The translations under genes were made by a program, and so were the position numbers. A stretch of DNA of 64,000 nt from the NCBI RefSeq assembly GCF_000382045.1, contig NZ_KB907450.1:510204-574203 (forward strand). The letters are read 5' to 3'. Shown one piece after another: positions 26,955 to 29,279 of the stretch; the stretch's first letter is position 1, and each line of letters starts with the position of its first letter. A model generated the notes under the pieces. The model saw nothing but the letters and a program-made list of their open reading frames with translations, had not been told where the DNA came from and did not search any database. Origin of the DNA: Variovorax atrisoli 110B. Its GTDB lineage: Bacteria > Pseudomonadota > Gammaproteobacteria > Burkholderiales > Burkholderiaceae_C.

Positions 26955-29279
26955 TTGAATTTCAGGAAAGAAGGAGATCATATCAAAAATAATGTCACTT
27001 CCAGCGGCCTGCTGGATGAAATCGAAGGAACTGTTCAAGGACATCGCGACGGGCACGGCTTCGTGCAGCGCGACGATGGCGAAGCGGACATCTATCTGCC
27101 CCCGAACGAAATGCGCGCGGTGCTGCACAAGGACCGCGTCAAGGCGCGCATCGTGCGCCAGGACCGCCGCGGACGTCCCGAAGGGCGCGTGGTGGAGATC
27201 GTCGAGCGCCCTGAGCAGCCCATCATTGGCCGCCTGTTGCACGAAGGCGGCATCTGGCTCGTCGCACCGGAAGACAAGCGCTACGGCCAGGACGTCCTGA
27301 TTCCCAAGGGAGCGACCGGTCCCGCGAAGGTGGGGCAGGTCGTTGTCGTGCAGCTCACCGAACCGCCGGCCCTTTTCGGCCAGCCCGTGGGCCGCGTGAA
27401 GGAGGTGCTGGGCGAGATCGACGACCCCGGCATGGAGATCGAGATTGCCGTGCGCAAGTACGGCGTGCCGCATGAATTTTCCGCGGAGTGCCTGGCCGCA
27501 GCCAAGGCACTGCCCGAGAAGGTCCGCCCGGCCGACAAGAAAGGCCGCGTCGACCTCACCGACGTCCCGCTCGTCACCATCGACGGTGAAGACGCGCGTG
27601 ACTTCGACGACGCCGTCTATTGCGAGCCCGCGAAGGTGGGTCGCGGCAAGGGCTGGCGCCTGCTGGTTGCCATTGCCGATGTCAGCGCCTATGTGCAGAC
27701 CGGCTCGCCCATCGACATCGACGCCTACGACCGCGCCACCAGCGTCTACTTCCCGCGCCGGGTGATCCCGATGCTGCCCGAGAAGCTGTCGAACGGCCTG
27801 TGCTCGCTCAATCCCGAAGTCGAGCGCCTGTGCATGGTGTGCGACATGCTGGTCGATGCCGACGGCGAAATCTACGCCTACCAGTTCTATCCGGCAGTGA
27901 TGTTCAGCCACGCGCGCTTCACGTACACCGAGGTGGCTGCGATCCTTAGCAACACCCGCGGCCCCGAGGCTGCGAAGCGCAAGGAACGCGTCAAGGACCT
28001 GCTGAACCTCGCCGACGTCTACAAGGCGCTGCTCAAGCAGCGCGGCAAGCGCGGCGCCGTCGACTTCGAGACCACCGAGACCCAGATCATCTGCGACGAC
28101 GCCGGCCGCATCGAGAAGATCGTGCCGCGCACGCGCAACGAGGCGCACCGCCTGATCGAGGAGGCGATGCTCGCCGCCAACGTCTGCAGCGCCGACTTCA
28201 TCGCCCAGGGCAAGCACCCTGGCCTGTACCGCGTGCACGAAGGCCCGACGCCCGAGAAGAAGGAAATCCTTCGCGGCTACCTGAAGGCGATGGGCGTGGG
28301 CCTGAGCATCACCGATGAGCCGAGGCCGGGCGAGTTCCAGGCGATCGCCGAGGCCACCAAGGACCGTCCCGACGCGCAGCAGATCCACACCATGCTGCTG
28401 CGCTCGATGCAGCAGGCGATCTACACGCCGATCAACAGCGGCCACTTCGGCCTGGCCTACGAGGCCTACACGCACTTCACCAGTCCGATCCGGCGTTATC
28501 CCGACCTGCTGGTGCACCGCGTGATCAAGGCGATCCTCGGCAACACGCGCTACCAGCTGCCGATGCTGCCGACCCCTGGCGAGGCACACGCCAAGCTGGC
28601 CAAGCGCCTCGCGTCTCGCGTGAAGGCGCCGACGGCCAAGCCTCAGAAGGCCACCGTCGCGCCCAGCAAGGAAGTTTTGGCATGGGAGGCCGCGGGCCTG
28701 CACTGCAGCGCCAACGAGCGCCGTGCCGACGAGGCCAGCCGCGACGTCGAGGCATGGCTCAAGTGCAAGTACATGCGCGAGCACCTCGGCGAGGAGTACG
28801 GCGGGGTGGTTACTGCGGCCACCACCTTCGGCATCTTCGTCACGCTCGACGCGATGTACGTCGAGGGCCTGGTGCACATCACCGAGCTCGGCGGCGAGTA
28901 CTTCAAGTTCGACGAGATGCGCCAGGAGTTGCGCGGCGAGCGCACCGGCATCCGCTACGCCATCGGCACGCGGGTGCGGGTGCAGGTGAGCCGCGTCGAC
29001 CTGGACGGCCGCAAGATCGACTTCCGCCTCGTTCGCGAAGGCGAGGAGCTGACGACGCGGGCGATGAAGGACAAGGGTGCGGCATCATCGGGTGTGCCCG
29101 TGAAGGCCTCGGCCAAGCGCAGCACGCGCAACAAGGCGGAAGCCGGCAATGCCGAGCCCCGCGGCGAGCGGCCGACTTCGGCCACGGCCGGTGCGCAGTC
29201 GGCGATGCAGGCCTTCAAGTCGGCGGTGAAGAAAGCCGCCAGCAAGATGAAGGGCAAGGGGCGCAAGCCGCGCCGCTGA
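26955..29279 (+). CDS. rnr: Ribonuclease R (3'-5' exoribonuclease)
   Basis: RNase R degrades structured RNA processively. The 774-residue reading has N-terminal cold-shock/OB domains (GHGFVQRDDGEADIYL), the RNB catalytic core with the acidic cluster DGEDARDFDDAVYCE, the HFTSPIRRYPDL signature, a C-terminal S1 domain (VVTAATTFGIFVTLDAMYVEGLVHI) and a Lys/Arg-rich tail. The start is uncertain. There is no in-frame ATG or GTG near the N-terminus: this TTG has no ribosome-binding site, whereas a strong AAGGAG (26971-26976) is spaced 5 bases from an in-frame ATC at 26982, which would give a 765-residue protein. An ATG at 26992 is out of frame. Confidence 0.93.
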   Translation: MNFRKEGDHIKNNVTSSGLLDEIEGTVQGHRDGHGFVQRDDGEADIYLPPNEMRAVLHKDRVKARIVRQDRRGRPEGRVVEIVERPEQPIIGRLLHEGGIWLVAPEDKRYGQDVLIPKGATGPAKVGQVVVVQLTEPPALFGQPVGRVKEVLGEIDDPGMEIEIAVRKYGVPHEFSAECLAAAKALPEKVRPADKKGRVDLTDVPLVTIDGEDARDFDDAVYCEPAKVGRGKGWRLLVAIADVSAYVQTGSPIDIDAYDRATSVYFPRRVIPMLPEKLSNGLCSLNPEVERLCMVCDMLVDADGEIYAYQFYPAVMFSHARFTYTEVAAILSNTRGPEAAKRKERVKDLLNLADVYKALLKQRGKRGAVDFETTETQIICDDAGRIEKIVPRTRNEAHRLIEEAMLAANVCSADFIAQGKHPGLYRVHEGPTPEKKEILRGYLKAMGVGLSITDEPRPGEFQAIAEATKDRPDAQQIHTMLLRSMQQAIYTPINSGHFGLAYEAYTHFTSPIRRYPDLLVHRVIKAILGNTRYQLPMLPTPGEAHAKLAKRLASRVKAPTAKPQKATVAPSKEVLAWEAAGLHCSANERRADEASRDVEAWLKCKYMREHLGEEYGGVVTAATTFGIFVTLDAMYVEGLVHITELGGEYFKFDEMRQELRGERTGIRYAIGTRVRVQVSRVDLDGRKIDFRLVREGEELTTRAMKDKGAASSGVPVKASAKRSTRNKAEAGNAEPRGERPTSATAGAQSAMQAFKSAVKKAASKMKGKGRKPRR

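Follow-up and report, generated by a model that had tools for sequence, protein, structure and literature searches.

The rnr gene (RNase R) of the stretch of DNA analysed here (the window: 64,000 nucleotides, G000:C1:510204-574203 in a 7.5-Mb genome) very probably begins at a rare AUC codon and not at AUG. The comparative support for this start position is strong, and most of the relatives examined share the AUC start; it is a real feature of these genomes, perhaps a regulatory one. In the reading as a whole, to which we attach high confidence on the basis of sequence comparison, AUC 26982 is the start, initiation there would be weak and sensitive to IF3, and the site would have originated through loss of an N-terminal region.

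Loci compared

One hundred genomes of the same genus were searched and rnr was found in 97, the window's own included. The same-genus set comprises 90 loci, that is, the window and 89 of the 96 matching relatives (G009, G011, G035, G046, G057, G069 and G078 were left out); species inside the genus are not independent. A further 128 loci consist of 80 named loci (the best 80 of 588, five of which are Variovorax loci that repeat loci of the genus set) and 48 anchored, lower-scoring loci of the family. For the latter, 50 of the 58 genomes picked from 295 matching family genomes were used (G127, G129, G140, G141, G202, G211, G212 and G223 being left out), closer members of the family entering through the named loci only; two of the 50 are not anchored, namely L206 and L217, which appears to be ATG-started. 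The named and lower-scoring sets may overlap further, and L152 is cut at a contig end. As the outgroup at the level of the order, 20 of 137 matches were taken, 15 of them anchored and the rest read by eye. The tree is a quick IQ-TREE phylogeny of 81 rows (the 80 named loci and the window) with a midpoint root, and infC was read in the best 30 of 60 matched family genomes (L244-L273).

The probable start site in the window

The features of the site are collected in Table 1. As the first-pass annotation had described, AAGGAG is followed, after five bases (ATCAT, 26977-26981), by an in-frame ATC at 26982-26984, and both the coordinates and the reading were confirmed in the sequence. The codons after the ATC are AAA AAT AAT GTC ACT TCC AGC GGC CTG CTG GAT GAA ATC GAA GGA, and no stop interrupts the rnr frame between TTG 26955 and the terminal stop codon, which ends at 29279. 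It had also been stated that no ATG or GTG lies in frame nearby and that the TTG has no ribosome-binding site. A check of the frame agrees, with no in-frame ATG or GTG near the ATC site in the window and the ATG at 26992 in another frame, and the predicted Shine-Dalgarno energies (computed against a 16S tail sequence) are -9.3 kcal/mol for ATC 26982 versus -0.7 kcal/mol for TTG 26955. A Shine-Dalgarno sequence at working distance, as is expected of genes with a non-AUG start, is present in the window, and in the predicted centroid fold both this sequence and the AUC are unpaired.

Table 1. Features at and around the rnr start in the window
Feature	Position	Strand	Remarks
rnr (RNase R), from the AUC start	26982..29279	+	stop codon included; 765 aa; Pfam OB_RNB, CSD2, RNB, S1
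ATC, very probable start codon	26982..26984	+	89 ATC and 1 ATT in 90 same-genus loci; frame constraint downstream, none upstream
Shine-Dalgarno AAGGAG	26971..26976	+	5-base spacer; -9.3 kcal/mol; unpaired in centroid fold
TTG, rejected alternative start	26955..26957	+	Shine-Dalgarno energy -0.7 kcal/mol; no in-frame counterpart in 27/90 same-genus loci
10-bp hairpin, then TTTT	26930..26956	+	terminator-like on +; leader hairpin of the tRNA on -
-10-like TATGAT (26982-26977) with TGn (26985-26983), putative promoter of tRNA-Leu copy B	26977..26985	-	overlaps the ATC
tRNA-Leu(CAG) copy B	26843..26927	-	divergent from rnr

Taken by itself, AAGGAG is suggestive evidence of a start. In fact, a Shine-Dalgarno sequence as strong as that of the site occurs at 2.7% of 4000 random window positions and precedes 33 of the 1041 plus-strand ATC triplets, one of the 33 being the site itself, and in many relatives it is weaker (from about -9.5 down to -1.5). 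The site exceeds chance because it is conserved in all 90 same-genus loci. The preference for ATC over ATT at the start proves little, since the isoleucine codons of rnr in the window are mostly ATC anyway (34 ATC, 4 ATT).

Conservation of the codon within the genus

The first-pass annotation had left three options, namely a true AUC start, a TTG start further upstream, and a sequence error or start-codon mutation at this locus, and had proposed that the codon be compared with that of rnr in relatives. The site is present in 90/90 same-genus loci, being ATC in 89, ATT in one and ATG in none, with the hexamers ATCAAA (84 loci), ATCATC (4), ATCAAG (1) and ATTAAA (1); in L076 an ATG lies three codons past the site. 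This distribution supports the option of an AUC start, the relatives sharing ATC or ATT and none having ATG. Within the genus, the comparison shows no conserved canonical start, either at the site or close to it.

Where the reading frame becomes constrained

The 100 bases upstream of the conserved GxVxGHRDG were searched for the pattern [TC]ATCA[AT] in any frame. The distance from pattern to motif is divisible by 3 in 93 of 93 matches from the 90 genus loci (89 with a match), in 59 of 60 matches from the 80 named loci (55 with a match) and in 69 of 73 matches from the 48 lower-scoring family loci (40 with a match), and the five off-frame matches are extras in four loci that also have an in-frame one. 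The frame is kept while the length from ATC to motif ranges from 45 to 81 nt. On the upstream side, CAGGAA and the site stand 17, 18, 19 or 21 apart in 89/90 genus loci; among the named loci, 44 were measured and 43 gave values of 17 to 23. All residues modulo 3 are found in both sets. Since the distance from ATC to motif changes in threes and the upstream distance does not, the frame is held from the ATC on and not before it; the reading-frame constraint is thus shown by comparison to begin at the ATC site. The minor-allele counts over the 14 codons after the ATC in the genus are 212, 98 and 193 at codon positions 1, 2 and 3, which is not a clean pattern.

The RNase R protein and its N-terminus

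The protein of the window carries PF08206, PF17876, PF00773 and PF00575 (OB_RNB, CSD2, RNB and S1, respectively), the domains by which RNase R is recognized. OB_RNB starts at residue 16, with no long N-terminal region before the OB domain. In E. coli, a long N-terminal region (helix-turn-helix) precedes the OB domain of RNase R, a feature that the family does not strictly require. By eye, 16 of the 20 order-level outgroup loci have an extension of about 60 or more N-terminal residues; no domain of this helix-turn-helix kind was named by Pfam in two pieces of 74 aa from this outgroup. The short N-terminus is also present in four of the 20 (L228, L230, L237 and L242), and therefore N-terminal shortening is not unique to Comamonadaceae and Sphaerotilaceae.

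In the same outgroup, rnr seems, by eye, to be TTG-started and to have no obvious Shine-Dalgarno sequence in L225, L227, L229 and L231, which belong to one other family of the order, as well as in L237 and L242; in L242 the end of a tRNA-Leu lies just upstream of rnr. Weak starts of rnr may thus extend more widely through the Burkholderiales.

The divergent tRNA-Leu gene

In 213 of 218 loci, ARAGORN detected a tRNA-Leu gene that lies upstream of rnr and is encoded on the other strand; of the remaining five, L078, L095, L117 and L152 are cut near a contig end, and in L046 the end of the tRNA was recognized by pattern only. The -10 hexamer TATGAT that had been placed on the minus strand before tRNA-Leu copy B (the complement of 26977-26982) is indeed present. 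The site is accompanied by a tRNA at no more than 80 nt (a limit of the analyst's choice) in 165 loci, 88 of them from the same genus; 133 of these 165 have a minus-strand -10-like hexamer, preceded by TGn in 119. The C of the window's ATC complements the G of the promoter-like TGn. Part of the nucleotide conservation of the site can come from this overlapping promoter-like sequence.

If the overlap alone maintained the ATC, the codon would be expected to disappear more often where the tRNA is distant. The tRNA lies beyond 80 nt in 18 loci, of which 11 have ATC and two ATT without a canonical start nearby, while the other five have an ATG a few codons downstream; in 12 of the 13 that keep AUC or AUU the tRNA lies at 113 nt or more. 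Of the 107 clade loci whose tRNA lies within 80 nt, 26 have a canonical start, and therefore tRNA distance does not predict the switch of codon. Promoter overlap as the sole cause of the ATC was rejected as not enough, 13 of 18 distant-tRNA loci keeping AUC or AUU; it may have contributed to fixing the codon, but is insufficient to account for its having been kept.

The hairpin at 26930-26956, ACGTAGTTGC-AGAA-GCAACTACGT followed by TTTT, is located between tRNA-Leu B and the rnr Shine-Dalgarno sequence. Of the 45 distinct sequences in the genus (85 of 90 loci examined), 39 fold here with at least 6 pairs, a count made with no shuffle control, and the pairs vary. The window has two tandem tRNA-Leu(CAG) genes, at 26549-26633 and 26843-26927, with alike surroundings; in 17 of 23 relatives there is one tRNA-Leu in the stretch scanned. 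In L130, L133 and L137, decayed tRNA-Leu-like remnants were seen by eye beside rnr, with an intact gene 155-241 nt away.

Distribution beyond the genus and ancestry

Outside the same-genus set, 71 of the 128 further loci have AUC (68), AUU (2) or AUA (1) at the site with no ATG, GTG or TTG from four codons before it to six after it, while 26 have AUC or AUU plus a canonical codon nearby (ATG in 10, TTG or GTG in 16). The remaining 31 do not fit the site rule. These include one Hydrogenophaga-Tepidimonas group, with GTG, and several loci of Acidovorax, Comamonas and Rubrivivax type, with ATG or TTG; L186, L191 and L194, which carry ATC ATC and fail the rule, were also counted as non-fitting. 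In the lineages with ATC ATC, either ATC may be the start. Many Sphaerotilaceae have an in-frame ATG five codons before the motif.

In the tree, the five rnr rows nearest to the window are all Variovorax, and AUx starts lie on both sides of the split between Sphaerotilaceae and Comamonadaceae. The GTG group forms a single branch of 8 rows (SH-aLRT 98), and nine changes between AUx and canonical starts are counted on the tree when AUx loci with a nearby ATG are scored as canonical. With the midpoint root, the AUC start is probably ancestral to Comamonadaceae and Sphaerotilaceae.

Alternative explanations

Translation from TTG 26955, nine codons upstream, would make use of a canonical codon in frame, and an equivalent TTG is in frame in 63 of the 90 same-genus loci, the window among them. 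In fact, the window alone would not decide the matter, because an in-frame TTG with no Shine-Dalgarno sequence exists there and in 62 other loci of the genus. Nevertheless, its Shine-Dalgarno energy is poor beside that of the ATC, and in 27 of the 90 loci there is no such TTG in frame, 21 of these having no ATG, GTG or TTG at all before the site, in a search reaching back 45 codons from the motif. In 18 of 90 these three codons are missing from the whole open frame up to seven codons before the motif, and in one group, exemplified by L012, a one-base change upstream puts a stop in frame and the interval from this stop to the ATC contains no ATG, GTG or TTG. Furthermore, distances upstream do not vary in threes and the TTG sits in a stretch that is conserved as DNA (TTTTGAATTTCAGGAA), so that the TTG option must be regarded as very unlikely. 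A start further upstream, inside the antisense tRNA, was likewise rejected, the spacing there not being in multiples of three.

The idea that the ATC is a sequencing error, or a mutation of the start codon private to this genome, has nothing in its favour other than the rarity of the codon. It is ruled out by the 89 ATC and one ATT in 90 loci of the genus, and other genera, represented by named isolates and by metagenome genomes, agree with the ATC reading; the chance that it holds is negligible. A further explanation is that conservation of the ATC reflects nothing but its place in the tRNA-Leu promoter, and that RNase R starts at a downstream codon, for example, in many Sphaerotilaceae, the ATG that stands five codons ahead of the motif or, in Comamonadaceae, a TTG or CTG. 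This would fit the overlap of the -10-like hexamer with the site in most close-tRNA loci as well as the downstream ATG of the Sphaerotilaceae. However, it is hard to reconcile with the 13 of 18 loci in which AUC or AUU is kept, with no canonical start nearby, although the tRNA is more than 80 nt away, with the frame maintained between ATC and motif over 45-81 nt, or with the lack of a clade-wide downstream canonical codon among the loci listed, and we consider it very unlikely. As a counterpoint to the AUC reading, several lineages use GTG, ATG or TTG.

Proposed mechanism and implications

According to the AUC reading, the codon at 26982 would be decoded by the initiator fMet-tRNA and positioned by the strong AAGGAG. 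By analogy with infC, initiation at AUC would be inefficient, and the translation of rnr is probably weak and sensitive to IF3. RNase R would then be kept low and would rise when 30S subunits outnumber IF3. Regarding its origin, the ancestor of Comamonadaceae and Sphaerotilaceae may have lost the longer rnr N-terminus that is typical of most other Burkholderiales read, and the new start would have landed under the divergent tRNA-Leu promoter. There, the pairing of the C of AUC with the G of the promoter TGn would hinder a change to AUG, and the weak start would be kept.

A more speculative extension, which we put forward as possible though rather doubtful, is that rnr and infC form a small regulon set by their AUC/AUU/AUA start, together with a mutual constraint between the AUC and the extended -10 of the tRNA-Leu(CAG) promoter, the codon having become fixed because its C also serves as the G of that -10. 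If this were true, the amount of IF3 available per 30S subunit would determine how much RNase R is made, and an RNase active on ribosomal RNA would be tied to the balance between ribosomes and initiation factors. As regards annotation, a gene caller that admits only ATG, GTG and TTG would put the rnr N-terminus elsewhere, here at TTG 26955. The site would also be an instance of a start codon that lies inside the promoter-like sequence of a divergent tRNA gene. Natural AUU, AUC and AUA starts are known in few bacterial genes, and an AUC conserved in rnr of many Comamonadaceae and Sphaerotilaceae would add a clear case.

Comparison with known systems

With its conserved codon and conserved frame, rnr can be placed, on comparative grounds, among the genes with a conserved non-AUG start, the class of infC and pcnB. 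A literature search of partial coverage listed no paper dealing, in its title or in the opening of its abstract, with the rnr start codon of these bacteria, and the plasmid collection gave no rnr match of at least 60% identity, hence no annotation of the rnr start for the clade.

In the best 30 of 60 family genomes, infC starts with ATC in 27, ATA in three and ATT in none, mostly behind AAGG-type sites, and in 24 of the 30 there is no ATG, GTG or TTG back to the preceding stop. The E. coli infC is described as starting with AUU, against which IF3 discriminates in an autocontrol of its own synthesis, and in the count given in that source infC and pcnB are the only E. coli genes with AUU starts (PMC9410913). 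In the in vitro work reported, IF3 disfavours weak codon-anticodon pairs, including AUU with the initiator anticodon CAU (PMC10158994). Like infC, rnr has here an AUN start with a good Shine-Dalgarno sequence, conserved in relatives; unlike it, the control by IF3 that is known for infC would be a prediction for rnr, and the two genes and their products are unrelated.

Binns and Masters reportedly showed in 2002 that, in E. coli, the synthesis of poly(A) polymerase I from pcnB is limited by its weak AUU start. This gene resembles rnr in that an RNA-decay enzyme is made from a weak start, the enzyme being a different one. As a second AUC gene in the window genome pcnB was rejected, an ATG being seen by eye at the expected N-terminus (TTMIKKF).

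In S. aureus, where infC has an AUA start, the conserved non-canonical starts of cvfC1 (AUU) and ccpN (AUA), with strong Shine-Dalgarno sequences, are reported to have been found by re-annotation and demonstrated by ribosome profiling and reporters, AUU and AUA starts giving about 10% of the output of an AUG reporter in poor medium (PMC13009471). The rnr start shares with cvfC1 and ccpN a conserved non-canonical codon and a strong Shine-Dalgarno sequence, whereas it is known by comparison alone, its codon is AUC and it overlaps a divergent tRNA promoter-like site.
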